Of a DNA stretch of 12,337 nucleotides, positions 33 through 12,154 are shown piece by piece. Every line of letters begins with the position of its first letter. The first letter of the stretch is position 1. Both the position numbers and the translations under genes were made by a program. The stretch is taken from contig MIDO01000110.1 of NCBI GenBank assembly GCA_001831055.1, positions 1 through 12,337 of the forward strand, read 5' to 3'. This stretch comes from Verrucomicrobia bacterium GWC2_42_7 (GTDB lineage: Bacteria; Verrucomicrobiota; Verrucomicrobiia; Opitutales; GWC2-42-7-A). The notes under the pieces were generated by a model that made no database searches, was not told the DNA's origin, and saw only the letters and a list, made by a program, of their open reading frames with translations.

Positions 33-75
33 TGCGGGGAAACGGCTTTTATTGGCATAAAAGCGTTTCCCCGCA
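33..75 (+). repeat. Hairpin 1 of the left spacer, 17 bp stem
   Basis: The left arm (33-50) and right arm (59-75) are complementary over 17 bp with one bulged G and an 8 nt loop. The inner part, AAACGGCTTTT paired with AAAAGCGTTT, recurs with the same bulged G at 4684-4720, so the two are related copies and not independent hairpins. It could end transcription of a gene lying left of the window, but the right arm is followed by CACCACC and not a T-run, so it is not a clean intrinsic terminator on the + strand. Confidence 0.8.
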
Positions 76-93
76 CCACCTTCCTAAAAGGAG
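76..93 (+). repeat. Conserved CCTTCCTAAAAGGAG motif after hairpin
   Basis: Directly after the 33-75 hairpin is a short stretch ending in TTCCTAAAAGGAG. Close relatives follow hairpins at 4724-4742, 12137-12154 and, on the minus strand, 8601-8618. The consensus is near CCCCTTTCTGAAAAGGAG, itself able to form a mini-hairpin (CCTTT/AAAGG). Function is unknown; I treat it as a linker module of the palindromic repeat family. Confidence 0.55.
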
Positions 94-97
94 GCAA

Positions 98-140
98 TCT
101 GCGCACTAACAAGTTCTTTCAGAACTTGTTAGTGCGCAGA
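98..140 (+). repeat. Perfect 20 bp inverted repeat, 3 nt loop
   Basis: Positions 98-117 and 121-140 are exact reverse complements separated by TTC. The stem reads TCTGCGCACTAACAAGTTCT. A perfect 20 bp palindrome with a minimal loop would be extremely stable as RNA or as cruciform DNA. No T-run follows. It occupies the second-hairpin position of the hairpin, motif, hairpin module also seen at 4684-4798 and 8556-8657. Confidence 0.9.
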
Positions 141-320: not shown

Positions 321-2318
321 GTGTTGCTGGTAAATTATTTTTTGAATTTAAGCATAAAGAAAAAGCTATCTGTTTTTTCGACGTTTTATATTTTGCTTAT
401 ATTGGCGTTTATTGCGGTGGGTTCGGTTTTTTGGAAGAGCATTGATCGAAGTTATTTGCTTAAAGAAAAGGTTTATCAACTGGTACGCTTTGCGCAAAAT
501 GCACGTATTTTAGAAAAATCCTATCTGCAGTATTATGAGGTGCAGTACTATGAAAAAGTTTTGTTGGCTTGCGATGACATTCTCTCTTCGATCGATAGCC
601 TTATGAAACAAAAGATACGAGTCGAAAAGATAAATGAGATTCGTGAAGACATTGACCTTTATAAGCGAGAGTGTAAAAACATTAATCAGTCCTATCAAGA
701 GCGGTTAGGTCTTTACGCTGCCATCAACCAATACGAGGAAGAAGCAAGAACGTGCATTAATAGTTTTTGGAAATTTTATTCAGCTTATAAAGAAGGACTT
801 CGTGCGGTGGGGAGGACTTTGCCTATTGGAGAAGAAACCTCAAGCATTGATATCGAAAATTGCTATAAGTTACTGTTACGCTTAAAAATCTATTTTCAAC
901 AATTTATACTAGAAGGAAAAAGAGAACATCTCATTGCTTTTAAAGAAATTCTGAATGGTGAGTATAATACCATTCTTGAATCTATATCAAAGGCTTCAAA
1001 AACCGTTACTGATCCACAAATTGTGGCATTTATTAACAAAATGACTTCCATTCTCGACCAATGTACACGCATTCCTGCGCCATTGGATGAATCTTTTGAG
1101 ATAGCTAAGGCATCTATTGAATCATTGGACAAGATTGGAAGTAAAATATCCTTAAATGCGGATACGTTGCTCGCAGAGGCTGATCAAGCCAATAAAGATG
1201 CAATAAAAAGCGCTGCTGTTTTTATCTTTGGCCTTAGTTTAATAGGTATTTCTTTAGCTTTGGGATTCGGTGCCCTATTGAATAACTTGATAACAGGTGC
1301 CGTTCAAGCACTTATGGCGTTTGCAAAGGACCTTTCTGAGGGAGACCTCACTACTCGTATCAAAGTAACAACAAAAGATGAGTTGGGTAAAATGTCAGCA
1401 ACATTTAACCAAGTTATCGATCGTTTTCAGAAAATTATTAAGGACGTCGATGTCAATACTAGGACTCTTAATAATTCATCAGAAAATCTCTCCATGACGT
1501 CAGATAAGATGAGTACGAGCGCTAATAAAATGAAAAAACAAGCAGCCAAAGTCGCCGCTGCAGGGGAAGCTCTCTCTTCTAATATCATTTTTATGGCATC
1601 TTCTGCCGAAAAAATATCCACTTCGGCCATAAATGTAACCAATAGCATTAGCCAAATCAGTCTCTCTATCAATGATGTTGCCAAAAGCTGTACAAAAGAA
1701 TCAGAAATTGCAAAACATGCAGACCTTAAAGCACAAGAAGCAAGTGAAATGATGATGCGTTTAGGCAAAACAGCCCAAGAAACTGAGAAAATCGTCGAGT
1801 TAATCACTCATATTGCGGATCAAACGAACTTGCTCGCCCTCAATGCCAATATCGAAGCGGCCTCCGCAGGCGGTGCCGGTACCGGATTTTCCATCGTCGC
1901 AAATGAAGTCAAAACACTATCTAAGAAAAGCAGTGAATCTGCTATTCAAGTTAATAAGTTGATCGAACAAATCCAAAAAGATACAAAAACTGCCAATGAA
2001 GTTATCAAATCCGTAAAAGAAATCATTGGTGAAGTCTCAGTTATCTCGCAATCAATCGCCGTCGTCGTAGAAGAACAATCCTCCACCACCAACGAGATCG
2101 CCAGAGCTATGCAAAATTCTTCCACCGCAACTAACGAATTAGCTGGAAGTATTCACGAAGCGGCAAGACGCGCAACCGAAGTATCCAACAACGTCCAAGG
2201 GGTCAGCCTAGACGCAGATCAGGTTGCGTTGGGCACAAACGCAAATAATACGGGTTCCCAAGAACTCGCACAAATGGCCATTCGCCTCCAAAAAATCGTT
2301 CAACAATTCAAAGTTTAG
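321..2318 (+). CDS. Methyl-accepting chemotaxis protein with large periplasmic sensor
   Basis: This is a transmembrane chemoreceptor that senses ligand outside the inner membrane and controls the CheA kinase in the cytoplasm. The 665 residues show a short cytoplasmic start, a first membrane segment at about 17-38, an all-helical periplasmic region of about 255 residues (42-297), and a second membrane segment at about 298-322. A HAMP linker follows (about 323-376), then a long coiled-coil signalling domain. The hairpin tip is clear at about 490-535 (IADQTNLLALNANIEAASAGG, then GFSIVANEVKTLS). The sensor length and helical character resemble the helical bimodular (HBM) class, but this is inference. 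There is no WxxF-type pentapeptide at the C-terminus, so CheR/CheB tethering of the enteric kind is not expected. The start is GTG at 321, the only upstream candidate in frame. The end overlaps convergent nth by 11 bp. Confidence 0.95.
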   Translation: MLLVNYFLNLSIKKKLSVFSTFYILLILAFIAVGSVFWKSIDRSYLLKEKVYQLVRFAQNARILEKSYLQYYEVQYYEKVLLACDDILSSIDSLMKQKIRVEKINEIREDIDLYKRECKNINQSYQERLGLYAAINQYEEEARTCINSFWKFYSAYKEGLRAVGRTLPIGEETSSIDIENCYKLLLRLKIYFQQFILEGKREHLIAFKEILNGEYNTILESISKASKTVTDPQIVAFINKMTSILDQCTRIPAPLDESFEIAKASIESLDKIGSKISLNADTLLAEADQANKDAIKSAAVFIFGLSLIGISLALGFGALLNNLITGAVQALMAFAKDLSEGDLTTRIKVTTKDELGKMSATFNQVIDRFQKIIKDVDVNTRTLNNSSENLSMTSDKMSTSANKMKKQAAKVAAAGEALSSNIIFMASSAEKISTSAINVTNSISQISLSINDVAKSCTKESEIAKHADLKAQEASEMMMRLGKTAQETEKIVELITHIADQTNLLALNANIEAASAGGAGTGFSIVANEVKTLSKKSSESAIQVNKLIEQIQKDTKTANEVIKSVKEIIGEVSVISQSIAVVVEEQSSTTNEIARAMQNSSTATNELAGSIHEAARRATEVSNNVQGVSLDADQVALGTNANNTGSQELAQMAIRLQKIVQQFKV

Positions 2319-2928
2319 GGTCGTTTTTAATTGCAGAACAAATAGGACAGGTCCCCTTGCAACCTCTTGCAGTACAATAATCTCTTCCGTATTGAATGAT
2401 CTTGAGGTGGAGAGGGATCCATTCGTGTTCGGGGAATGATTTTTTTAAGTCCGCTTCTATTTTTTTGACATTTTTAGAGGTGGTTAACCCCCAACGTAGT
2501 GCAAGCCGTTGAATATGAGTATCTATTGGAAAGGCTGGAATGTGGAACGCCTGAGCCATTACGACAGAAGCTGTTTTATGACCAACCCCAGGAAGGGATT
2601 CTAAGGCATCCCAGTTTGCAGGTACTTCACTATCAAACTGTTCTAATAAAATCGTAGATAATTGCTTTATGGCAACTGATTTCCTCGGAGATAGACCGCA
2701 GGGGCGTATAATATCTTGAATTTGTTGCACTGATAGTGAAGCCATTTTTTGGGGAGTATCGGCTAAAGCAAACAACTTTGGCGTGATCTTATTGACTTGA
2801 ACATCTGTGCACCTAGCAGACAAAACAACCGCTACCAACAACGTAAATGGATTTTTGTGATCCAGAGGAATTTTCATCTCTGGATACAACTCTTTCAGCT
2901 TCTTTAAAATATATTCTGTTTTTTTCAT
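2308..2928 (-). CDS. nth: Endonuclease III (DNA glycosylase/AP lyase)
   Basis: This base-excision repair enzyme removes oxidised pyrimidines and cleaves the abasic strand. At 206 aa it has the usual family length. The helix-hairpin-helix motif is LPGVGHKTA at residues 112-120, with the expected catalytic lysine at K118. The catalytic aspartate is D136 in FPIDTHIQR. Four C-terminal cysteines (C185, C190, C194, C197) probably hold the [4Fe-4S] cluster. Their spacing C-x4-C-x3-C-x2-C differs from the C-x6-C-x2-C-x5-C of the E. coli enzyme. No Shine-Dalgarno is seen before the ATG at 2928. The 3' end overlaps the convergent chemoreceptor gene by 11 bp, leaving no room for a terminator between them. 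Confidence 0.95.
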   Translation of the reverse strand: MKKTEYILKKLKELYPEMKIPLDHKNPFTLLVAVVLSARCTDVQVNKITPKLFALADTPQKMASLSVQQIQDIIRPCGLSPRKSVAIKQLSTILLEQFDSEVPANWDALESLPGVGHKTASVVMAQAFHIPAFPIDTHIQRLALRWGLTTSKNVKKIEADLKKSFPEHEWIPLHLKIIQYGRDYCTARGCKGTCPICSAIKNDPKL

Positions 2929-3110: not shown

Positions 3111-3332
3111 GAGATCGAATTCATTCATGCTCTTGAAAATAACCATCTATTTGTATCAATAGATTTTTAATTCACTATAAAACCTTGTAGATTTTACTTA
3201 CGCGAAAAAGAGATTACTGTCACTATTTATTTCCAGTGGAGGCAATTATAATGTCGCAGAAAGACCTTACGGGATTTTGAGTTGGGGCCGGTCAATGTGA
3301 GGATCTTTTCAGCTCTTCTTTAAGCACCCCAG

Positions 3333-3450
3333 AAAATCCCCCGTTCAATTTTTGAGAAGGCGGACGAGGCGAAGATGATGGAGCGTACATATGTACGTAA
3401 CCGAATATGAGTCCGATGTTCAACACACTCAAAAGTTGAACGGGGGTTTT
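3333..3450 (+). repeat. Conserved-core hairpin element A, copy 1
   Basis: The arms 3333-3356 and 3428-3450 pair over about 22 bp with one bulged T and one mismatch. They enclose a 71 nt core (3357-3427). The core is 56/71 identical, without gaps, to the reverse complement of 12038-12108, while the arms of the two copies are unrelated. Inside the core, CGGAC (3361-3365) pairs with GTCCG (3411-3415), and the centre is the perfect 14 bp palindrome CGTACATATGTACG (3384-3397). Read on the minus strand it follows the flgN stop by only 8 bp, and the GC-rich stem ending in GGGGGATTTT could act as that operon's terminator with a greatly enlarged loop. Confidence 0.85.
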
Positions 3451-3458
3451 TCCCAAGA

Positions 3459-3833
3459 TTATGCTTTTAAGCTTAACGTTGTCGTCGAGGTATGCTCGGC
3501 GTAGCTTTTAGAAAACTCTTTGAGTTTTACTTGCGACTTGCGAATGTCCTCGAGTTTTGTTTGGAGCTCAGAAACGGTGTCGCGAGTAAGATTGGTATTT
3601 GTTGTTTGATTTCGGGCAATCTCTGCTGCGAGATTTTTCATTGATTCCCGTTCCTCTACCGTTAGATTTTTCCAACTATTTGATTGCAAGGTGGATAGTA
3701 CATCTGTTTTTTGAAGAATCGTCTCATGTAGACAATCCACATTGCATTCTAGTAATGAAACTCGTTCTTTATCAATCAGTTGAGTGAGTGTTTGGAGCAA
3801 TCGTAGAAGCTCTGAATAATCGGATTGATTCAT
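3459..3833 (-). CDS. flgN: FlgN-like flagellar export chaperone
   Basis: This is a small, almost entirely helical protein of 124 aa with strong heptad character and no signal peptide or membrane segment. FlgN family proteins are cytoplasmic chaperones that hold the hook-associated proteins FlgK and FlgL for the type III flagellar export gate. The pattern LLxLLxxLTxLIDKERxxLL at the start, a central K-T-D-V-L-xxL, then RNQTTNTNL is typical of the family, but sequence conservation is low. Position is the main support: the start codon overlaps the fliS stop by 4 bp (ATGA), so the two are almost certainly co-translated. FliT-type chaperones are the alternative. Confidence 0.72.
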   Translation of the reverse strand: MNQSDYSELLRLLQTLTQLIDKERVSLLECNVDCLHETILQKTDVLSTLQSNSWKNLTVEERESMKNLAAEIARNQTTNTNLTRDTVSELQTKLEDIRKSQVKLKEFSKSYAEHTSTTTLSLKA

Positions 3834-4255
3834 GCGTTGCTTGATAAGGACGGCTTATCGGGTTTTTGATCTTGTTTTGTTAACATTTCTGCCCAGGCAT
3901 CTCGAATTTCGTTGAGCATTTTGTAGACATTGTCGATAGGGCCAATTGTTTTTTTTAGATTAGCTTTTTGTAACTCTTTGAGCATGAAATCATAAAGACC
4001 TCGCATGGTCCGGGTAAAATCCGTATCCATGGTTGGGTCTAAGCTAATTTGCAACTCTGTAATGATATTTTGCGTTTTTGTTATGTTGTTGTTAATAATC
4101 TCGTTGCGAGCGACAGGATTGGGTTCGTTAAAACCAGTGCGAGCAACTTGCATAAAGCGAAGGGCTCCATCGAAAAGCATTAAAACAAGCTTTCCCGGAG
4201 AAGCTGTTTCGACGGAATTACTTTTGTAAGATTTTGCCAATTCCTTAGGATTCAT
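3830..4255 (-). CDS. fliS: Flagellin export chaperone FliS
   Basis: FliS binds the C-terminus of newly made flagellin, prevents premature polymerisation in the cytoplasm and delivers it to the export apparatus. The 141 residues show the family signature clearly: Y at the start of the first helix (AKSYKSNSVETASPGKLVLM), LFDGALRFMQ, a central NNNITKTQNIITELQISLD, and LYDFMLKELQKAN. The C-terminal tail (KQDQKPDKPSLSSNA) is low complexity. The ATG abuts the TAA of the upstream FlgM-like gene with no gap (TAAATG on the minus strand), preceded by AAGGA 7 nt away. Its stop overlaps flgN by 4 bp. The flagellin gene is not in the window. Confidence 0.96.
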   Translation of the reverse strand: MNPKELAKSYKSNSVETASPGKLVLMLFDGALRFMQVARTGFNEPNPVARNEIINNNITKTQNIITELQISLDPTMDTDFTRTMRGLYDFMLKELQKANLKKTIGPIDNVYKMLNEIRDAWAEMLTKQDQKPDKPSLSSNA

Positions 4256-4585
4256 TTAACATCCTTCGATAGCAGAAGAAGATATGTCTTGAAGTAAGAC
4301 CGATGAGAGCCTACCCAGTTGATCAGAAGAGGGATAATTTTCGTCATTGAGTAAACGCTTCCCTAATGCAACTTTATCAGTGCGAATTTCAGGTATCTTT
4401 TTGATATCAGAAATAACAGCATCTTGACTGCGTACCTGAAAAAGACTTTCAGGCGTGGAGACGGAGTCCTGTAACTTCGAAGCATCCTTGTCCGTTTTAG
4501 ACGCAGACGATCCTCCTTGCCGCAATGGTTGATAACCCATTGAAGACTTAGAAAGATCTATATGTAGCTTTGGATCCATACTCAT
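4256..4585 (-). CDS. Candidate FlgM-like anti-sigma-28 factor
   Basis: This protein of 109 aa is polar and probably disordered over the first 60 residues, with a short C-terminal helical region. The part at about residues 64-101, with IRTDKVALGKRLLNDENYP and a final LGRLSSVLL, follows the FlgM pattern (V/I-R-x-D-K-V-x-x-L-x-x-x-I-x-x-G-x-Y-x-V-...-A-x-x-L-L). FlgM binds sigma-28 until the hook is finished and is then exported, releasing late flagellar transcription. Being first in an operon with fliS and a FlgN-like chaperone, behind a possible sigma-28 promoter, fits this role. The usual GxY is here ExY (NENY), and no search was run, so the assignment is a strong hint rather than proof. Confidence 0.6.
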   Translation of the reverse strand: MSMDPKLHIDLSKSSMGYQPLRQGGSSASKTDKDASKLQDSVSTPESLFQVRSQDAVISDIKKIPEIRTDKVALGKRLLNDENYPSSDQLGRLSSVLLQDISSSAIEGC

Positions 4586-4617
4586 ATGCCTTTTATCCTA
4601 AACAAGCCTTACCCTAT

Positions 4618-4644
4618 AAGTCGATCTTATTTTATAAAACTTAA
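4618..4644 (-). promoter_or_regulatory. Possible sigma-28 promoter of the flgM-like operon
   Basis: On the minus strand TTAAGTTT (4637-4644, 7/8 to TAAAGTTT) is followed after exactly 11 nt by ATCGACTT (4618-4625). The latter shares only the central CGA with GCCGATAA. The -35 octamer is identical to the one at the better fliD promoter (7583-7590), with the same spacing. Start of transcription would be about 4610, giving a leader near 25 nt that contains AAAGG before the ATG at 4585. The -10 is weak. Confidence 0.4.
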
Positions 4645-4683
4645 ATCAAATTTACTCTTTTTTTGAAAAAATGGGAATTTTTT

Positions 4684-4720
4684 GAAAAAACGGCTTTTAA
4701 TCGCTTAAAAGCGTTTTTCC
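4684..4720 (+). repeat. Hairpin related to 33-75
   Basis: GAAAAAACGGCTTTTAA (4684-4700) pairs with TTAAAAGCGTTTTTCC (4705-4720) with one bulged G and a 4 nt loop. The core sequence and bulge position are shared with the hairpin at 33-75. On the minus strand the stem ends in a T-run (CCGTTTTTTC), so it may act as a second terminator below the fliD-lipoprotein operon. Confidence 0.75.
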
Positions 4721-4723
4721 CAA

Positions 4724-4742
4724 GCCCCTTTCTGAAAAGGAG
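4724..4742 (+). repeat. Conserved CCCCTTTCTGAAAAGGAG motif
   Basis: This is the best copy of the linker that follows hairpins in four spacers (others near 76-93, 12137-12154 and minus-strand 8601-8618). It could form a 5 bp mini-hairpin. Here the + strand order hairpin-motif-hairpin runs opposite to both flanking genes, which argues against a simple gene-oriented terminator role. Confidence 0.6.
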
Positions 4743-4769
4743 TTCGTCTCAACTTACTCGAAAATTGAA

Positions 4770-4798
4770 AAAACGCTTTCCCGTCATGGAAGCGTTTT
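4770..4798 (-). terminator. Intrinsic terminator overlapping the lipoprotein stop codon
   Basis: On the minus strand AAAACGCTTCC (4798-4788) pairs with GGAAAGCGTTTT (4781-4770) with one bulge, around a loop that contains the TGA stop (4786-4784). The stem runs on into a T-run (GCGTTTTTTC), the layout of a rho-independent terminator. The last codons of the gene thus form the first arm of the terminator. Confidence 0.65.
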
Positions 4799-5440
4799 AA
4801 ATGCTTCCGATGCAACGTACTTGGAGAATTTTGAGGGGCTGTGGAGGATGGAGTCGGAGTTGTCGAGCGGATAGTCCTGTTGTTCGTTTTTCATTTGAAA
4901 CAACTTAGCTGCGTAAGAAACTCTTGGAGAACCTGCATCAAATATATTGTCAAAGGCCCAAAGGATTTTCCCTGTTTTTATTTCAACTAATTTAGCTCTT
5001 ATGCCGATGATAATGGGTTTATATGGTTGATATCGAAGTAGATCGATAAAAATAACCCCATCGGCGTCATATTTATTGTTCAATAACGGGAAGAAGTTTT
5101 GAGGGAAATTAGATGATGAATTAATTTGTTGCTTTCCAAACAATTGAGCCATTTCCTCCTTGGAGGCAGTGACCACTTCGAAACAAGCATTTTTTATGAG
5201 TTCGCAACTAAAAATATCTTCTAAAGAGAGAAGGAATGGGGCATCTCTTTCTTCGAAATAGATGGGCAAAAGGACGACACGTCGCAATGGAATGGTTTCT
5301 TTGGGCGCGAATACATTTTTTGGTTTGTAAGGTGGGGGAGGGGGGATGAGATCTCGTTTGATTTCACGTGTTCCACAACCAATTAATAATGAAGCTAATA
5401 GAAATAAAATACTTTTTTTAAAAAGAGGGGAAAGCATCAT
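4784..5440 (-). CDS. Outer-membrane-type lipoprotein, CsgG/PelC-like fold suspected
   Basis: The 218 aa protein starts with a lipoprotein signal: positive charges (KK at 8-9), a hydrophobic run, and the lipobox LIGC with the modified cysteine at C22. A proline run (about 33-37) serves as a flexible tether. The mature part alternates strands and helices: RRVVLLPIYF at about 53-62, a helix near 71-87, then DADGVIFIDLLRYQ and IGIRAKLVEIKTGKILWAF at 125-163. That arrangement recalls the CsgG/PelC/LpoB group of envelope lipoproteins, where a line reading KLVDxxTGxIlW is typical. The start overlaps the fliD stop by 4 bp (ATGA), so a role in flagellar assembly or rotation in the envelope is likely but undefined. 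I do not recognise a named family. Confidence 0.8.
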   Translation of the reverse strand: MMLSPLFKKSILFLLASLLIGCGTREIKRDLIPPPPPYKPKNVFAPKETIPLRRVVLLPIYFEERDAPFLLSLEDIFSCELIKNACFEVVTASKEEMAQLFGKQQINSSSNFPQNFFPLLNNKYDADGVIFIDLLRYQPYKPIIIGIRAKLVEIKTGKILWAFDNIFDAGSPRVSYAAKLFQMKNEQQDYPLDNSDSILHSPSKFSKYVASEAFKTLP

Positions 5441-7485
5441 GATAAGCTGGAGATAAAATTGTTTAATTGGGTGGTTTGTTGGTTGAGCTTTTGCATTGCC
5501 TCTTGCATTTTAAAGAGACTTGTCTGCATTGCCTCTTTTTGATTGTCTATGTATAGCTGTGTGGCGTCAATTTGTTTTTGCAAGGACTTGACCTGAGCCT
5601 GGTATGAATCGGTAATAACTTGTAGGGTTCCGCGAGAAGACGCATTAGTACTGTCTTGTTTAGTCAATTGGGTTGTGTACTTTTCAATAACAGCACCTAA
5701 GCCATTATTTTCGTCAGTAAAAAGGGTGGTTACTCCAGCGGGGTTTTGTTTTAAGGCCTTGGTTAATTTTGATTGATCTTTGATTTGCAGTTGGGAACTG
5801 GTGCTGCTGAAATCGATACCCATGTCAGCAAGGCGCTGGACTGACCCCGTTAAGCCTGGGACCGTATCAAAAACTTTAGCTCTAAGAGCACGGGCGATGC
5901 TCTTTATGTCATCATTGGTAGCAAATTGTGCAGGAGTAACTTTTCCGCTGGCATCTTTTTTTATGGAAGTATTCGTGTCGATGTAAGTTTGCACTTTGTT
6001 ATAAGCATCGATAAATCCTTGTATGGCCGATTGAGCGCCTGTCGTACTTTGATCAACCGCAACTGTTTCGGTTCCTGTTTTAAGGGCGGAAACGGTCAGA
6101 CCGGAAATACCGTGTACAGAGGCTGTTAGGTTATTGCTTTGACTTGTCATAGCGATATTGCTATCGCCAATGTAAAAGGTTGCATTCTCTCCTAAAGTTG
6201 TAGTCGGGGCTGTCAGCCCCATTTTATTCAGTAACCCACCAGAAATATCGGAAACGCTGACATCAAGCGATCCTGTATTTTTGCTTGTTAAAACGAACCT
6301 ATCATTGGTGTTATCATAAGAAATATTAACACCTGCAGAGGATAAGTTGATTTGGGACATCAAATAACCCATACTTTGTCCCGATTGAAAATTGAACCTA
6401 ACTCCGTTAATGGTGAAGGCGCCGTCTTGGGTCACCATGTTGTTACTTTGAAGCTGAGTGTCTTCGTTAACTCCACCGATGGTATTAGAGCTAGAGACAG
6501 TATTAGTGTTGTTTCCTGACAATTTCGCGGCGCTGAGGAAGTTGCTCGTATCACTAGAAGAGCCTAGCACAATGGGGTCGCTTCCTTGGCCTGTTAGGGT
6601 AATTTTGTCTTTAGCGGAATCATAAGAGGCGGTAACAACACCACCTGTGGCCGCAGAAATTTTATCGAATACATTTTTTAATGTATCTGTTGTATCGATG
6701 GTTACAGTCTTTCCGTTAACCGAAAGTGTTCCCGCTGTTACCTTGTTGTCTGATAGGGAGCTAGCTAGATTTGAACTTGTCAGGGCATTACTCATGCTAA
6801 CAGCGCCCAATTTTGAACCGCTTGATATGGAAGAGGTTCCGTTGCTAAATAATTTTACAGCGCTGAGAAAGTTACTCGTATCTCCAGCCGTCCCGATCAC
6901 GATTGCCGAAGTGCTTGATAAGGAAATTTTGTCTGAAGTGGGGTTGTATCGCGCGGAAACGGTACCGCCTGTCGCTAGGGAAATTTTATTAAAAACCGAT
7001 TGGAGCGAATCGCTGGTAGCAATGGTAATGGTTGCCCCATTGACTGTAAAATTTCCAGCAGTAATAGGGCTATTAAGACTCATAGACGACAATGTCACTG
7101 CACTAACATCGCTGGTCGAATGAATCGGCTTTGCTATACTGGAGGCTCCCGTTCTTACTGATTTTGTTGCCAAAGAAGTAATCTTAAATTGATAGGAACC
7201 AACAATAGTATTCGGTTCAGCCTCAGCGGATACAACGGGCGTAGTATTTCCGTTTTTTAAAGAAGTTGTTCTTCCTCCAAATACAGAGTTTTGTTTGAGT
7301 GCTTGAGCGGCTGATTTTAAAGCACTTAAGCTGCTATTCAGTTCACCCAAGGAGGTTGTTTTTGCCCTGGCAGTCGTTTGCTCTGTTTGAAGCTTTGTTT
7401 TAGGAACAGATAAACCACTAACATATTGATCAAGCATGGATTGCCAATCAATACCATTTACCAATCCTGTCAGTTGAGTGCCCAT
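5437..7485 (-). CDS. fliD: Flagellar filament cap protein FliD (HAP2)
   Basis: FliD caps the growing filament outside the cell and guides insertion of flagellin subunits. The 682 residues show the N-terminal D0 region (GLVNGIDWQSMLDQYV, then a heptad stretch to about residue 65), a long middle region, and the C-terminal family domain. In the latter, AIQGFIDAYNKVQTYIDTN (about 487-505), an ALRAKVF element, RLADMGIDFSSTSSQLQI (551-568) and the coiled-coil end (625-682) are diagnostic. The middle holds three related units (about 143-235, 248-345, 350-426), described as a finding. ATG at 7485 is chosen because it starts directly before the conserved D0 sequence; no Shine-Dalgarno is visible. A sigma-28-type promoter lies about 80 bp upstream. 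It is the first gene of a two-gene unit with the lipoprotein. Confidence 0.96.
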   Translation of the reverse strand: MGTQLTGLVNGIDWQSMLDQYVSGLSVPKTKLQTEQTTARAKTTSLGELNSSLSALKSAAQALKQNSVFGGRTTSLKNGNTTPVVSAEAEPNTIVGSYQFKITSLATKSVRTGASSIAKPIHSTSDVSAVTLSSMSLNSPITAGNFTVNGATITIATSDSLQSVFNKISLATGGTVSARYNPTSDKISLSSTSAIVIGTAGDTSNFLSAVKLFSNGTSSISSGSKLGAVSMSNALTSSNLASSLSDNKVTAGTLSVNGKTVTIDTTDTLKNVFDKISAATGGVVTASYDSAKDKITLTGQGSDPIVLGSSSDTSNFLSAAKLSGNNTNTVSSSNTIGGVNEDTQLQSNNMVTQDGAFTINGVRFNFQSGQSMGYLMSQINLSSAGVNISYDNTNDRFVLTSKNTGSLDVSVSDISGGLLNKMGLTAPTTTLGENATFYIGDSNIAMTSQSNNLTASVHGISGLTVSALKTGTETVAVDQSTTGAQSAIQGFIDAYNKVQTYIDTNTSIKKDASGKVTPAQFATNDDIKSIARALRAKVFDTVPGLTGSVQRLADMGIDFSSTSSQLQIKDQSKLTKALKQNPAGVTTLFTDENNGLGAVIEKYTTQLTKQDSTNASSRGTLQVITDSYQAQVKSLQKQIDATQLYIDNQKEAMQTSLFKMQEAMQKLNQQTTQLNNFISSLS

Positions 7486-7490
7486 ATTAA

Positions 7491-7511
7491 ATTGATTATC
7501 AAACTGTTATG
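7491..7511. repeat. TTGATTATCAAA palindromic site, copy 1
   Basis: The 11 bp dyad TTGAT-T-ATCAA is at 7492-7502, followed by an ACTGTTATG extension. It lies in the fliD leader, 6 bp before the ATG. A second copy of the 21 bp unit with three differences is at 7682-7702, on the other side of the fliD promoter. It could be a regulator binding pair. The half-sites resemble FNR half-sites, but the 1 bp spacing does not fit FNR (4 bp). Confidence 0.45.
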
Positions 7512-7563
7512 TTTTTTTTTGATTGTCTTAGAAAATCCAAATTCACATAAGTAGCCAACTTAT

Positions 7564-7590
7564 ATATCGGATTTTTAGAAAAAAACTTAA
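7564..7590 (-). promoter_or_regulatory. Sigma-28 (FliA-type) promoter of fliD
   Basis: On the minus strand TTAAGTTT (7583-7590) matches 7 of 8 bases of the -35 consensus TAAAGTTT. The spacer is exactly 11 nt, and TCCGATAT (7564-7571) matches 6 of 8 bases of GCCGATAA including the CCGATA core. Transcription would start near 7556, giving fliD a leader of about 70 nt. This is the usual class for a filament cap gene. Confidence 0.72.
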
Positions 7591-7681
7591 GTGTTTATGG
7601 TTAAATGTGTTGAAAAAAGAGGCAAAAACTCTCTTTTTGCAGTGAAAAGAAAGCTTTTCGATTCTAAGGGAAATGCAATAA

Positions 7682-7702
7682 TTTGATTATCAAATTGTTG
7701 TG
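7682..7702. repeat. TTGATTATCAAA palindromic site, copy 2
   Basis: The dyad TTGAT-T-ATCAA is at 7683-7693, followed by ATTGTTGTG, and agrees with 18 of 21 positions of 7491-7511. The copies are 191 bp apart on the same strand and flank the fliD promoter, an arrangement seen with looping repressors or dimer-bridging regulators. Confidence 0.45.
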
Positions 7703-7940
7703 TGTATTGCTTGGGGTGTAAGGAAATACCCAAATTAAAAAGAAAATCTAAAGCTTCGCTTTTCTCCTTAATACAGTAACAACAAATTTTCCTACTTCCC
7801 CACAATAATTATAGTTTAAACCATAAGGGATCTTATAGCAAGAAAGAAGTGATTCCTATCTCTTTAATAAAAATTGCCTTAAAGAAAGTTAACAGCTGTT
7901 TTTTTGTCATATATACTTAATAGCATTGAGAATAGATACG

Positions 7941-7978
7941 CGGAAACCTTTCTTTTCCTGAGAAAAGAAAGGTTTTCG
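7941..7978. repeat. 17 bp hairpin below the small secreted-protein gene
   Basis: CGGAAACCTTTCTTTTC (7941-7957) pairs with GAAAAGAAAGGTTTTCG (7962-7978) through 16 Watson-Crick pairs and one G-T, with loop CTGA. It starts 35 bp beyond the stop codon of the 8013-8387 gene and may end its transcript, although no T-run follows on the minus strand. The arm sequence resembles the hairpin at 8618-8657 and part of 213-242. Confidence 0.75.
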
Positions 7979-8012
7979 CACCTTGTCACTTCTATTTTTC
8001 AGTATGCTATAC

Positions 8013-8387
8013 CTAAAAAAGAGGTGTTATTGCAAGGTCTTCGACTACTGCCGAAAGGCTGTCAACACTCCTTCCTAGGGCGTTGATTGCGCTTTGGTTT
8101 TGCTTATCACTACTTTTTATCTCATTCCAAACAAATCGCGCATATATAAGGTCTCCGGACAATATATCAAAAGCCCATAGTCTTTCTTCGATGCTATCCA
8201 CTCCAGCTGCATTTAGTGATTTAAGCTGAAATTGTTCTATTTCTCTCAAGGATTGCTTTTGTCGACTTATTCGTCTTTGAATCCTATTCATCTTTAACCT
8301 GATGACATGTAAGTTTGTTCGAGTATGAAATCCGTATGCTTGCGATAAGCATAGCATTGCTAGGGTAATTAGTAATCTTTTCTTCAT
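8013..8387 (-). CDS. Small secreted or periplasmic protein, function unknown
   Basis: The 124 aa product begins with a classical signal peptide: MKKR, a hydrophobic run, and probable signal peptidase I cleavage after about residue 19 (QAYG/FHT). There is no lipobox cysteine. Residues about 25-60 are rich in R, K, Q and E with regular hydrophobic spacing (LHVIRLKMNRIQRRISRQK), so an amphipathic helix or coiled coil is likely. No family is recognised. It lies upstream of fliD on the same strand but 527 bp away, with its own hairpin between, so it is probably a separate transcript. A flagellar link is only positional. Confidence 0.7.
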   Translation of the reverse strand: MKKRLLITLAMLCLSQAYGFHTRTNLHVIRLKMNRIQRRISRQKQSLREIEQFQLKSLNAAGVDSIEERLWAFDILSGDLIYARFVWNEIKSSDKQNQSAINALGRSVDSLSAVVEDLAITPLF

Positions 8388-8540
8388 ATGGCTAATAATA
8401 AGTGGTTGGAATTTTTAGAAGATTCAAAATCCTTTGGCAAATAAATAACAAAACACTTTGCCTAAGAGTCGTAGGTCCCTTAATCGAATGAAAGGGTATA
8501 TTTCTTTTTGAGATAAAAAAGAGGGAGGGAGTCTTCTTAA

Positions 8541-8594
8541 AGGGAAAAACCAACAATCGAGCCAATCAAATTCTTCGAATTTAATTGGCTCGAT
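8541..8594 (-). repeat. Variable-stem hairpin element B, copy 2
   Basis: ATCGAGCCAATCAAATTC (8556-8573) pairs with GAATTTAATTGGCTCGAT (8577-8594), 17 of 18 positions, with a TTC loop. Compared with the stem at 3072-3110, at least two positions differ on both arms so that pairing is kept (G-C for A-T, and A-T for T-A). The flank AAAAACCAACA (8545-8555) matches AAAACCCAATA before copy 1, and 8501-8519 matches 3026-3044. Read on the minus strand it follows the gatB-proximal hairpin and linker. Confidence 0.8.
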
Positions 8595-8600
8595 ATTCGC

Positions 8601-8618
8601 TTTCCTTTGAAAGGGGCC
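8601..8618 (-). repeat. Linker motif GGCCCCTTTCAAAGG
   Basis: On the minus strand this is a slightly shortened copy of the CCCCTTTCTGAAAAGGAG linker, located between the gatB-proximal hairpin and element B copy 2, exactly where the module seen elsewhere predicts it. Confidence 0.5.
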
Positions 8619-8657
8619 GGGAAAACTTTCTTTTCTTTTAAAAAGAGAGTTTTCCCG
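8618..8657 (-). terminator. Hairpin downstream of gatB, probable terminator
   Basis: CGGGAAAACTTTCTTTT (8618-8634) pairs with AAAAGAGAGTTTTCCCG (8641-8657), 16 Watson-Crick pairs plus one T-G, around a 6 nt loop. It begins 20 bp after the gatB stop codon. The transcript would end in CCCGGCCCC rather than a T-run, so classic intrinsic termination is doubtful; a role in 3' end protection is the alternative. Confidence 0.6.
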
Positions 8658-8677
8658 AGATACTTCCGCCTCCCTTA

Positions 8678-10132
8678 CTAAGCGAGTAATTTCCTTAAAA
8701 TTTCGTCGATGATTTTTGGATTTGCTTTACCTTGGGAGGCCTTCATGACTTGGCCCTTGATGGCGTTGATGGCGTTGTCTTTTCCTGATTTGAATTCAGC
8801 AACAGCTTTGGGATTGTTATTGATTGCATCTGCGCAGAGTTTTTCGATGGCAGAGGTATCTGTGTTTTGTTTCAAATCCTTGTCTTCGACGATCTTTTCT
8901 GGGTTTTGTCCCGTTTTGAAGATTTCATTGAAAACTTCTTTGGCGATTTGTGACGAAATGACCGATTGATCGACCAACTTGGCTAATGAGGCCAGGTGAT
9001 GTGGTTTTACCTTGGATTCGGCGAGGGGTAGGGAGCCGTTTGTTCCTGCAACTGACAATTCACGTAGTAACTCGTTGACAATGAAATTGGCAATCATTTT
9101 CGGTTGATTATAGAGAGAAACCGCTTCCTCAAAGTAATCACTCAACTCTTTATCTGGGCAAATTACTGATGTGACAGAATAGGGGAGGTCGTATTGCTGA
9201 AAAAAACGCTCCTGTTTTATGAAGGGCAATTCTGGTTGTTCAGCGCGAATAGATTCTCGCCATTCCTTAGAAATTTTGACAGGCATTAAGTCTGGGTCTG
9301 GGAAATAGCGATAATCATGAGCCATTTCCTTGGAACGCATAGAGATAGTGATTCCTCCTTCTGCATCCCAGCGACGTGTTTCCTGAAGAATGCGTTGCCC
9401 TGATTCTAAAGATTCGATCTGGCGCTTAATTTCGAAAGAAACGCCGTTACAAACGCCGGAAATGGAATTGAGATTTTTGAGTTCGACCTTTGTGCCCAAT
9501 TTGCGTTCTCCTTTAGGTCTGACGCTGATGTTGGCATCGCAGCGCATTTGCCCTTTTTCCATGTCACAATCCGAGATTCCCGCATAGAGGAGATGCATGC
9601 GGAGAGATTTTAGAAAAGCAAAAACTTCATCTGCATTATGCATATCTGGTTCGGTGACAATTTCAATCAACGGAGTTCCTGCGCGATTGTAATCAACTAG
9701 GCTTTCGTTCCCGATGTGAGTGAGTTTTCCGACGTCTTCTTCCAGGTGGATACGGGTCAATTTGACCATCCTGTGTTTTCCCATGATATTTCGAGCAGAG
9801 CCTGGGAGCTCAATTTCGACTTCACCTCCCTGACAAATGGGCTTATCATACTGGGAAATCTGATAGTTTTTTGGCATATCAGGGTAAAAATAGTGCTTGC
9901 GGTCCCATTTGCAGATTTCCGGGATCTGGCAATTGAAAATCAATCCGACGCGGATAGAGTCGCGAATCGCTTGTAAGTTCATAACAGGCAACGCACCTGG
10001 TAGGCCAAGAACAACAGAATTGGTAAGAGTGTTGGGTTCTGCACCATACGCATAAGGGACTCGTGTAAAGAGTTTTGTTTTTGTGCCAAGTTGTACATGG
10101 ACTTCTAATCCGATGACTGCTTCGTATTCCAT
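8678..10132 (-). CDS. gatB: Asp/Glu-tRNA amidotransferase subunit B
   Basis: GatB binds misacylated Glu-tRNA(Gln) or Asp-tRNA(Asn), activates the side chain with ATP and receives ammonia from GatA. At 484 aa it is full length. The N-terminal cradle begins YEAVIGLEVHVQL and contains YGAEPNTLT, GLPGALPVMN, KHYFYPDMPKNYQISQYD (about 84-101), DYNRAGTPLIEIVTEPDM and MRCDANISVRP. The last 150 residues form the helical YqeY-like tRNA-recognition tail. The gene starts 5 bp after the gatA stop without a visible Shine-Dalgarno, so translational coupling is likely. It is last in the gatCAB order, followed by hairpins at 8618-8657 and 8556-8594. Confidence 0.97.
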   Translation of the reverse strand: MEYEAVIGLEVHVQLGTKTKLFTRVPYAYGAEPNTLTNSVVLGLPGALPVMNLQAIRDSIRVGLIFNCQIPEICKWDRKHYFYPDMPKNYQISQYDKPICQGGEVEIELPGSARNIMGKHRMVKLTRIHLEEDVGKLTHIGNESLVDYNRAGTPLIEIVTEPDMHNADEVFAFLKSLRMHLLYAGISDCDMEKGQMRCDANISVRPKGERKLGTKVELKNLNSISGVCNGVSFEIKRQIESLESGQRILQETRRWDAEGGITISMRSKEMAHDYRYFPDPDLMPVKISKEWRESIRAEQPELPFIKQERFFQQYDLPYSVTSVICPDKELSDYFEEAVSLYNQPKMIANFIVNELLRELSVAGTNGSLPLAESKVKPHHLASLAKLVDQSVISSQIAKEVFNEIFKTGQNPEKIVEDKDLKQNTDTSAIEKLCADAINNNPKAVAEFKSGKDNAINAIKGQVMKASQGKANPKIIDEILRKLLA

Positions 10133-10137
10133 GATAA

Positions 10138-11604
10138 TTAAAGGGATGGATTTTTTGTGTAGTGAGGGTGTGCTTTCTCAAAGAAATCTGCAATGGCAAG
10201 CAACTGAGCTTCTGCATAGGGTTTGCCTATGATCTGCAAGCCAACGGGCAGATTGTTGTTTGTAAAGCCGCAAGGAATGGAGATTCCTGGGAGTCCTGCT
10301 AAATTGATAGAGATGGTGTAAATATCACTCAGATACATAGATAGCGGGTCTGTTGCCTTTTCTCCAATCTTAAAGGCTGCGGTTGGTGAAGTCGGAGTCA
10401 ATAAGGCATCAACACGCTGGAATGCTTGCTCGAAGTCTCTGCGAATAAGCGTCCTTACCTTTTGAGCCCGCACATAATAGGCATCATAATAACCACTACT
10501 GAGCACATAGGTCCCCAGAATGATGCGACGCTTAACTTCATCCCCAAATCCCTCTGCTCGGCTTTTTGAATAAATGTCGATGGCATCCGTTGCGTCTGAA
10601 CTCCGATGGGTATAACGAATCCCATCATAGCGAGCCAGATTGGATGAAGCTTCGGCTGTTGCTGTTAAATAGTAAGCTGGAATAGCCAAATCAGCATTTG
10701 GCAGCGATACTTCAACAATCTCACAGCCCTGTTGCTTATAAAAATCGATGGCCTTTTCTATAAAAACGCGAACCTCTGGATTAAGGCCTTCGCCGAAATA
10801 TTCCTTAGGAACCCCTAATTTCCAAGGACCCTTATTTTTTTCAATAGATTCTGTGTAATTGGGAATATTGGCCTTAAAACTTGTAGAATCGTAGCGATCG
10901 TGTCCCGCTATGATTTGCAAAGTGCTTGCGACGTCTTTCACGGTCCTCGCAAAAGGACCAATTTGATCAAGAGAGCTAGCAAAAGCAGCTAATCCATAAC
11001 GACTTACGAGTCCATATGTGGGTTTTAGTCCTACAACACCACACAAGGCTGCAGGTTGTCTAATGGAACCGCCTGTATCGCTTCCGAGAGCAATAATCGT
11101 TTCTCCCGCAGCAACAGCGGCAGAACTCCCTCCACTGCTTCCCCCCGGGATACGTTCAAGGTCCCAAGGATTATGCGTTGCCTGGAAAGCAGAGTTTTCA
11201 ACAGAAGAACCCATTGCAAATTCGTCGAGATTCGTCCGTCCCCACATAATTGCCCCTGCATCGCGTAAACGTTCAATAGCTGTTGACGTATAAGGGCTTA
11301 TATAGTTTTTTAAAATCTTACTTGCACACGTCAATTGTACACCCTTATCTGCCAAGATATCTTTAGTCGCTACGGGAATACCATCAAGAGGGCTCAATTT
11401 CTTGCCAGCTGCACGACGTTCATCGGAAGCCTTCGCTTCTGCAATGACTTTTTCTTCATTAGTCGCAAGGAATGCCTGCACCCTTGGCTCAATCTTTTTT
11501 GTCCGATCGATTACAGACTGGATTAATTCAACAGCAGAAATCTCCTTTTTATCGAGCAATTCGCCTAGTTCTGCTGCACTTTTAAAAAATAATTCGTTTG
11601 ACAT
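10138..11604 (-). CDS. gatA: Asp/Glu-tRNA amidotransferase subunit A (amidase)
   Basis: GatA hydrolyses glutamine and passes ammonia to GatB. The 488 aa sequence is full length and carries the amidase-signature triad: K81 in VATKDIL, the cis-serine S156 in PGGSSGGSS, and nucleophile S180 in GSDTGGSIRQPA. The lysine and nucleophile keep the spacing known from Staphylococcus aureus GatA (K79, S154, S178). The glycine-rich substrate-binding stretch GLKPTYGLVSRYGL follows. The C-terminal part ends in GFTNNNLPVGLQIIGKP, which is typical. The ATG lies 12 bp after gatC with a weak AGGAT upstream. Confidence 0.97.
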   Translation of the reverse strand: MSNELFFKSAAELGELLDKKEISAVELIQSVIDRTKKIEPRVQAFLATNEEKVIAEAKASDERRAAGKKLSPLDGIPVATKDILADKGVQLTCASKILKNYISPYTSTAIERLRDAGAIMWGRTNLDEFAMGSSVENSAFQATHNPWDLERIPGGSSGGSSAAVAAGETIIALGSDTGGSIRQPAALCGVVGLKPTYGLVSRYGLAAFASSLDQIGPFARTVKDVASTLQIIAGHDRYDSTSFKANIPNYTESIEKNKGPWKLGVPKEYFGEGLNPEVRVFIEKAIDFYKQQGCEIVEVSLPNADLAIPAYYLTATAEASSNLARYDGIRYTHRSSDATDAIDIYSKSRAEGFGDEVKRRIILGTYVLSSGYYDAYYVRAQKVRTLIRRDFEQAFQRVDALLTPTSPTAAFKIGEKATDPLSMYLSDIYTISINLAGLPGISIPCGFTNNNLPVGLQIIGKPYAEAQLLAIADFFEKAHPHYTKNPSL

Positions 11605-11616
11605 AATTTAAATATC

Positions 11617-11913
11617 CTATTCTTCGACTACGCGTGGAACAACTATCTGATCCTCATCAGCTTTAGGAGCATTTAAAAGGACATCCTCAACAGCAAAAGT
11701 TGATTCAGGGGTGTCCTCTTCCCAAACATTATAAAAGGGAAAGGAGTGGGACATGGGTTCGATGCCATCAACGTTTACTTGGCTTATTTTCTCACAATAC
11801 GTTATAATATTCTCCAATTGGCCAGAAAATTTCACCTTTTCAGCGTCTGACAACTCTATTCGCGCCAGCTGAGCCACATAATCTATATCAATCTTGTGCT
11901 TGCTTGTATCCAT
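11617..11913 (-). CDS. gatC: Asp/Glu-tRNA amidotransferase subunit C
   Basis: GatC is a small belt-like subunit that wraps GatA and stabilises the A-B interface. The start is placed at the ATG at 11913, giving 98 aa beginning MDTSKHKIDIDYVAQLARIEL; the frame stays open upstream to a TTG at 12009, but those 32 extra residues (many P, K and G) are unlike any GatC. The family marks are present: VAQLARIELSDAEK, the central QLENIITYCEKISQVNVDGIEP, and the end VVPRVVEE. The Shine-Dalgarno is weak. It is the first gene of gatCAB; the promoter must lie in the 11914-12010 stretch or beyond the hairpin, but I see no convincing consensus. Confidence 0.93.
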   Translation of the reverse strand: MDTSKHKIDIDYVAQLARIELSDAEKVKFSGQLENIITYCEKISQVNVDGIEPMSHSFPFYNVWEEDTPESTFAVEDVLLNAPKADEDQIVVPRVVEE

Positions 11914-12010
11914 ACCCGTTTTAGTTTTCTGTTTTTGTTCCCTTTTACAAGATTTTTTTGGGGGAATTGGGGGAACTGCTTTTGGTCTCCCAGAAAAGGG
12001 TCCCCTCAAC

Positions 12011-12135
12011 AGAAAGATGTTAGTTTAAGATTTCGAGATTGTTGGACATCGGACTCACACTTCCTTACGTACGGATGTGCGCTCGGTCGTGTTCGCCTCG
12101 TCCGCCTTCTCGAAATCTTAAACTAACATCTTTCT
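12011..12135 (-). repeat. Conserved-core hairpin element A, copy 2
   Basis: The arms 12011-12037 and 12109-12135 are perfect reverse complements over 27 bp, enclosing a 71 nt core. The reverse complement of the core matches 3357-3427 at 56 of 71 positions with no gap. The arms differ completely from those of copy 1 except for the innermost GAG/CTC. The inner pair CGGAC/GTCCG is kept, and CAC/GTG replaces a weaker pairing. The element lies 98 bp upstream of the gatC start, on the opposite orientation relative to copy 1. Confidence 0.9.
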
Positions 12136-12136
12136 T

Positions 12137-12154
12137 GCCCCCTCCGAAAAGGAG
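12137..12154 (+). repeat. Linker motif CCCCCTCCGAAAAGGAG
   Basis: It follows element A copy 2 by one base and shares GAAAAGGAG and the C-run with 4724-4742 and 76-93. In the + direction the spacer then has a weak remnant (12171-12200) and the hairpin at 12271-12309, so the same hairpin-motif-hairpin order applies. Confidence 0.5.

Follow-up and report, generated by a model that had tools for sequence, protein, structure and literature searches.

A recurrent non-coding hairpin with a conserved core in variable paired arms, probably a small mobile element of Opitutales and other Verrucomicrobiota

The closest described systems are small repeats, palindromes and folded sites, which we cite here and below from excerpts of the papers concerned. 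MITE-like small mobile repeats of bacteria include the enterobacterial RU-1, RU-2 and RU-3 (PMC2759123, PMC2229807), REPs are palindromes of 20–40 bp (PMC3733652), and integron attC sites fold into DNA hairpins whose sequence is poorly conserved (PMC2727003, PMC6393395). Template switching has been proposed as both maker and keeper of stems (PMC8794818). Among the titles and abstract openings listed in literature searches, we found no description of the hairpin family reported here.

The window, by which we mean the whole analysed stretch of 12,337 nt, holds two copies of this hairpin. Their conserved cores (copy 1, 3357–3427, plus strand; copy 2, 12038–12108, minus strand) are identical at 56 of 71 positions in an ungapped alignment and lie on opposite strands, as the initial annotation of this DNA had stated; the match extends to 3350–3434 versus 12031–12115, with 80% identity over 85 nt. 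The long inverted repeat described around each core is also present. In copy 1, a 5′ arm at 3332–3356 pairs with a 3′ arm at 3428–3452 over 25 nt with 92% complementarity (23/25). In copy 2, the arms (5′, 12108–12135; 3′, 12011–12038; both minus strand) are 28 nt long and 100% complementary, unlike those of its near relatives L009 and L033. Within the most conserved part of a cross-family alignment (A3) lies the tip, which in copy 1 is GGAGCGTAC-N4-GTACGTAACC at 3380–3402 and in copy 2 lies at 12063–12086. The core-centred model R2, made from this alignment of 29 of 31 prepared stretches, matches copy 1 at 3346–3438 (E 9.2e-23) and copy 2 at 12027–12119 (E 1.7e-21), both copies being in its training set. 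Copy 1 lies between a gene for an endonuclease III-like HhH-GPD DNA glycosylase (2308–2928, minus strand) and the FliS/FliD region, and copy 2 lies just upstream of the reading frame for gatC in gatCAB; no open reading frame of at least 80 amino acids overlaps either copy. The GatB protein is 67–68% identical to those of two Opitutia MAGs, and the remaining top matches listed are mostly from Opitutia/Opitutales, so we assign the host to the Opitutales (Verrucomicrobiota). A T-rich leader (about TTCTTTTGCTCCCTTTGCATAATCCCGC) stands 5′ of many A-type copies, for example at 3303–3336 in the window, and marks the junction of nested copies; the GCTCCC within it resembles the complement of GGGAGC in the core.

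The window's own genome (G000, Opitutales) is represented by 1.30 Mb in 133 contigs, with 64% completeness. A 20-nt core motif allowed up to three mismatches has 137 matches there (60 forward, 77 reverse), compared with one for a reversed-pattern control, so the resemblance of the window pair is not due to chance. Further copies, on which the initial annotation had made its proposal depend, were found in relatives as well. The loci fetched around the matches (about 351 kb, overlaps counted) contain 120 full copies, in 97 of which the 5′ and 3′ motifs together span 77 nt; the distance, covariation and chimera tests used 118, two having been dropped for N in the arms or core. The two window copies are 12 (5′) and 14 (3′) apart in arm distance, as against medians of 8 and 9 over pairs of the 118 copies. 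Calling the arms unrelated is therefore apt for the window pair, an extreme one, but not for the family, in which 54 aligned copies share an arm consensus with a nearly invariant TnAGTT box; replacement of arms by unrelated sequence is thus not supported. Nine other copies separate copy 1 from copy 2 in a minimum spanning tree of arm distances, and because two of these intermediates (L044 and L047) are arm chimeras, simple drift does not account for the chain between the window copies. A further repeat, roughly TGTCTATTATAACATATG...GTTTGATACGTTTGATC, is found 3′ of the hairpin in the A-type copies L058, L095, L015, L111, L122 and L045.

Covariation shows that the fold is conserved. In the alignment underlying model R1 (A1; 54 of 56 copies picked from the 89 of 118 with an arm duplex energy below −18), both partners have changed in 25 of the 38 predicted pairs, core helices included (for example, columns 58–83, with GC 27, CG 14 and AU 6); pair counts for the arms are biased upwards because these copies were preselected for arm pairing. 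When all 118 copies are used, some of the strongest covariation is between helix partners, and some neighbouring columns covary strongly too. Both-side changes are likewise found in 18 of 20 predicted pairs of the 29-sequence alignment, which spans seven genomes. In most families an AGGC loop stands opposite a CAAC loop in the core, whose short helices contain tandem G.A mismatches and whose tip is GGAGCGTA-N-TACGTGAC; a G.U pair next to the tip is conserved in all but one of the 29 sequences (28/29).

Core and arms are exchanged in G000. Across the 118 copies, distances between 5′ arms correlate with those between 3′ arms (r 0.59, 0/999 permutations), and core distances correlate at r 0.05 with the 5′ arm (66/999) and r 0.07 with the 3′ arm (27/999). 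A core that followed the arm tree would be expected to give 0.67 ± 0.05 (lowest of 200 simulations, 0.48), a value that depends on the average-linkage tree of the arms; the observed 0.07 therefore indicates separate histories for arms and core in this genome. A difference in rate is ruled out as the explanation, because linkage is lost in both directions: at an arm distance of 3–5 (155 pairs) the core distance is 14.6, near the roughly 16 of unrelated pairs, and at a core distance of 3–5 (122 pairs) the arm distance is 13.5 versus about 16.6. The closest pairs are still linked, with a mean core distance of 6.3 at arm distance 0–2 (12 pairs) and an arm distance of 6.5 at core distance 0–2 (19 pairs). 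Copies whose cores differ at one or two positions can have arms that are quite different yet matched, as in L036-1251 and L098-631, which have one core difference and 7 and 9 arm differences with matched arms in each; similar arms with different cores also occur. The basal helix of the core is not linked to the apical one (0.05–0.14). The two strands within each helix are linked (0.45 and 0.67), which base pairing alone may explain. Eight of 18 poorly paired copies are chimeras, with arms from two different lineages, and in L044 the 3′ arm is closer to the outer 5′ arm (distance 3) than to the inner one (distance 9), as expected of a recombination intermediate. The initial annotation had argued from the window pair that simple duplication is insufficient, and the 118 copies agree, with core and arms decoupled both ways. 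Homologous arms in further copies, which it had named as evidence for duplication, do occur in part, yet the congruence test speaks against duplication on its own. Exchange does not hold throughout the family, as core and arms are congruent in G012, the second well-populated genome (r 0.53, 0/999 permutations; best 33 of 41 matches).

Copy 2 also illustrates how paired arms may be kept. It has the same inner 5′ arm as L009 and L033 (in L033, the innermost part only), and its 3′ arm differs from theirs by one inserted base and two substitutions, all three of which bring it to exact complementarity with the copy's own 5′ arm. The inverted repeat of L012 reaches about 10 nt into host sequence. 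These few cases, copy 2 and L012, would fit template switching. The earlier suggestion that arms are rewritten in this way suits copy 2, the one clear case, but arms are not swapped for unrelated sequence.

Copies also lie inside other repeats. One such host in G000 is an abundant two-hairpin repeat consisting of a long palindrome, a CTCCTTTTCGGAAGGGG link and a second hairpin (hpB); its long first hairpin, too, differs from copy to copy in a matched manner. Copy 2 occupies one of 18 filled repeats (row L031-), with the link of host repeat 'B' (CTCCTTTTCGGAGGGGG; 12138–12154) directly upstream and hpB (11969–12007) directly downstream, both on the minus strand. The window contains host repeats without a core hairpin as well: one at 36–140 (minus strand; 20-bp hairpin 98–140, link, hpB 36–72), the hpB part of another at 4688–4737 (minus strand; row L001-) and a host-like repeat at 8547–8655 (plus strand; hairpin 8547–8603, short link, hairpin 8618–8655). 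Throughout G000, 64 host repeats are without the element and 14 have it between link and hpB; a link-only scan counts 18 filled and 71 unfilled repeats, and diverged copies are present in some of the 71. In 54 of the 64 unfilled repeats, link and hpB are 3–4 nt apart, and this comparison of filled with unfilled repeats suggests that arms and core arrive together, between the hairpins rather than inside a loop. From the sequences we infer gain rather than loss at these sites, which are paralogous, so that gain and loss are not distinguishable there. Copies of the element are also nested in one another. In a classification of 112 full copies with clean context, 21 directly follow a truncated 5′ half of another copy, 6 are followed by a 3′ half, one has both and 84 have neither, two-sided nesting being rare (1/112); the counts rest on this classification, as earlier half-copy lists hold spurious rows (coding sequence and reverse-strand matches of full copies). 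By eye, 5′ halves typically end after GGYGAAC, where the T-rich leader and the next copy start.

The element is mobile in a relative. A core-bearing insertion just upstream of a start codon in G031 is absent at the orthologous place in G077, G110, G063 and G098; a fifth congener, G047, matches the element only, without the flanks of the insertion. A second G031 insertion is absent from G077, the sole congener with a match covering that place. The G031 unit is about 262 nt long and has TIR-like ends, starting with ACCCCAAAGTTTCAAA and ending with TTTGAATCGTTTGGGT (from one insertion; the same ends recur among match limits). No target duplication of 2 nt or more was visible by eye at the G031 and host-repeat junctions. 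The mobile unit varies by genome: arms plus core in the G000 hosts, the approximately 262-nt unit in G031 and, in G035, composites of several hundred nucleotides of which the element is the 3′ end. A 221-nt G035 element sequence has 100 matches in G035, some of them opposite-strand matches of the same hairpins, and no match in the congeners G015 and G050; G091, another congener, has at least two R2 matches. G035 also carries a tandem array (L299 823–1590; G035:C1, about 1577.3–1578.1 kb) of units of about 171 nt, each made up of a leader hairpin, a 5′ arm and a core variant, with a matching 3′ arm only once, at the end of the array; match spacing suggests several such arrays in this genome.

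Relatives occur in the order and elsewhere in the phylum. Model R1 has matches in 7 of 52 genomes searched, own included, and in the aligned matches the core motifs are kept and the arms are, by eye, seemingly unrelated between families. Of 372 genomes of the order, 29 (from 17 of 100 genera, and with G000 among them) match model R2, as do 21 of a sample of 387 from the phylum, where family f41, outside the class, accounts for 15 of the 21; copies per genome from either model are lower bounds. In the two f41 genomes whose loci were inspected (G451 and G437), the core sits inside a long predicted hairpin. We do not rely on the R2 matches in G656 (E 2.8e-7) and G518 (E 1.6e-4). The viral contig IMGVR_UViG_3300024580_000032 (L327) has two core hairpins with long arms, each just 3′ of a reading-frame end, at 5938–6032 and 9989–10083 (R2 limits; E 1.7e-13 and 4.5e-11), and its tail sheath protein is 39–45% identical to those of Mu-like phages. 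A tip-pattern match in another viral contig (L328) was taken as chance, R2 covering only positions 28–63 of 93, and copy 1 had no match in plasmid and phage records at blastn sensitivity.

Searches of carrier genomes for an integron integrase, a Y1 transposase and a reverse transcriptase found no mobilising enzyme. The integron integrase model TIGR02249 has no match over the cut-off in seven carriers, and weaker matches are found in 7/7 carriers and likewise in 14/14 control genomes. The Y1 transposase (PF01797) is found in three of seven carriers and not in G000 (64% complete), G012, G029 or G035. The reverse transcriptase (PF00078) is found in three of nine and is absent from six, including G029, G031 and G035, which are 96–97% complete. 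Each was rejected as the common mobiliser.

We consider that the hairpin is probably a small, non-coding, non-autonomous mobile element of Opitutales and other Verrucomicrobiota, with a core that is recognised by its structure. The core, enclosed by long arms in which mainly complementarity would matter, may be the recognition site of an enzyme and may be read as folded single-stranded or cruciform DNA. The element would move as a unit of arms and core, with an extra leader or tail in some genomes and without visible target duplication, and would enter intergenic DNA, other copies of itself and the abundant two-hairpin repeat. In G000, copies would nest and would recombine through the core that they share, so placing one core in other arms, and the mispaired arms would then be repaired, by compensatory change or perhaps by template switching between the two arms; this is the order of events that we propose. 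A broader reading is tentative and, as a whole, rather doubtful: these would be phylum-wide mobile DNA hairpins, neither integron, REP nor retroelement, in which an enzyme recognises the folded single-stranded core, the arms need only be complementary, cores are modules passing between stems and Mu-like phages spread them between hosts.

Other explanations account for parts of these data. The core alone might be mobile and insert into the loops of pre-existing hairpins, as the initial annotation had suggested. The decoupling of core and arms in G000 is consistent with this, as are the 5′ halves of copies with another copy starting inside their core. The second G031 site, empty in G077, also folds better than shuffles (−14.0 versus −8.7 ± 2.7), which leaves room for a hairpin target there. 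Unfilled host repeats, however, hold just a short spacer where others carry arms and core, core and arms are congruent in G012, no hairpin with family arms but lacking a core came to our notice in passing, and the empty places of four congeners at the first and best-covered G031 site fold no better than shuffles (for example, −7.7 versus −11.2 ± 3.1; RNA energies and single-base shuffles at both sites). Because the core seems to bring its arms along, and because no tendency to form a hairpin is seen at the best-covered empty site, insertion of cores into existing hairpins is not the general rule, and movement of the core alone seems to us quite unlikely. Of that suggestion, the exchange of cores between arms stands; the uninterrupted hairpin expected at an empty site is not apparent where four congeners cover the place, the second site, in G077, folding better than shuffles. 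Selection on a structured RNA, either a transcribed element or an RNA intermediate with compensatory changes at the RNA level, would agree with the strong covariation and with the conserved G.U pair. Such selection would be expected to favour G.U, but on the modelled strand G.U cells do not significantly exceed A.C cells in the arms (55:72, p 0.16) or in the core (52:37, p 0.14, a slight lean toward RNA), and from this test of 118 copies, which has no positive control, we read the pairing constraint as acting mostly on DNA. The reverse transcriptase is moreover absent from six of nine carriers, G029, G031 and G035 included, and the window and six loci of relatives have no core match in Rfam 15 at the gathering score; we regard an RNA as unlikely.

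Plain duplication and drift, in which an old repeat acquired diverged arms without exchange, would explain the shared arm consensus, the similar cores of copies at arm distance 0–2 and the congruence in G012. It does not accommodate the chimeric arms or the loss of linkage both ways (core 14.6 at arm distance 3–5, arm 13.5 at core distance 3–5), and we hold it to be very improbable. The end boxes of attC sites are RYYYAAC and GTTRRRY; a comparison by eye of G029 and G000 copies found no consistent pair of attC-type boxes, the element having a conserved core and variable arms instead. Copies in G000 and G012 are furthermore on both strands and on many contigs, and the integron integrase model stays under its cut-off in all seven carriers. 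An attC-like recombination site or cassette array would have in its favour that attC sites are themselves folded hairpins of DNA with weakly conserved sequence (PMC2727003, PMC6393395, as excerpted) and that, in G029, 11 of the 12 core matches listed (at least 12 exist) share a strand and a 66-kb stretch of one contig, where they lie between ordinary genes (L148, L149; G029:C11, about 56–122 kb), but it appears to us exceedingly unlikely.

If the reading as a structure-recognised mobile element is right, it brings to light in Verrucomicrobiota a widespread family of small mobile elements whose defining feature is their conserved fold. With more than 100 copies in one genome, the family is also a natural experiment on the upkeep of paired arms in long hairpins, a copy number that lets recombination, compensatory mutation and template switching be separated. 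Core conservation, in turn, points to a putative structure-reading enzyme.

Among known systems, template-switch stem maintenance as excerpted (PMC8794818) resembles copy 2 in its matched multi-base changes that restore a stem; it is a mutation mechanism rather than an element family and accounts for neither mobility nor core exchange. The REP/RAYT system (PMC3733652, in the part cited) is likewise palindromic, high-copy and intergenic, but the element here is about 125 nt or more, and the Y1 transposase is absent in four of seven carriers searched. With MITE-like repeats, as the cited excerpts describe them (PMC2759123, PMC2229807), the family shares a length of 100–300 nt and a non-coding, dispersed, multicopy nature and perhaps terminal inverted repeats, to judge from the TIR-like ends of the G031 unit; it is a short non-coding element at many sites, with presence and absence at orthologous sites in the case of G031. 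It differs from them in its covarying core, conserved across families of the phylum within highly variable arms, in the absence of visible target duplication and in the reassortment of core and arms in G000. Integron attC sites share a hairpin structure that is conserved more than sequence (PMC2727003, PMC6393395, again from excerpts), but in the present element it is the inner core that is conserved, within variable arms, and the integron integrase is below cut-off. Because defining features that we tested for were not found, we would not file the element as attC, REP or classical MITE; on our analysis, it seems somewhat to resemble the folded-hairpin recombination sites.
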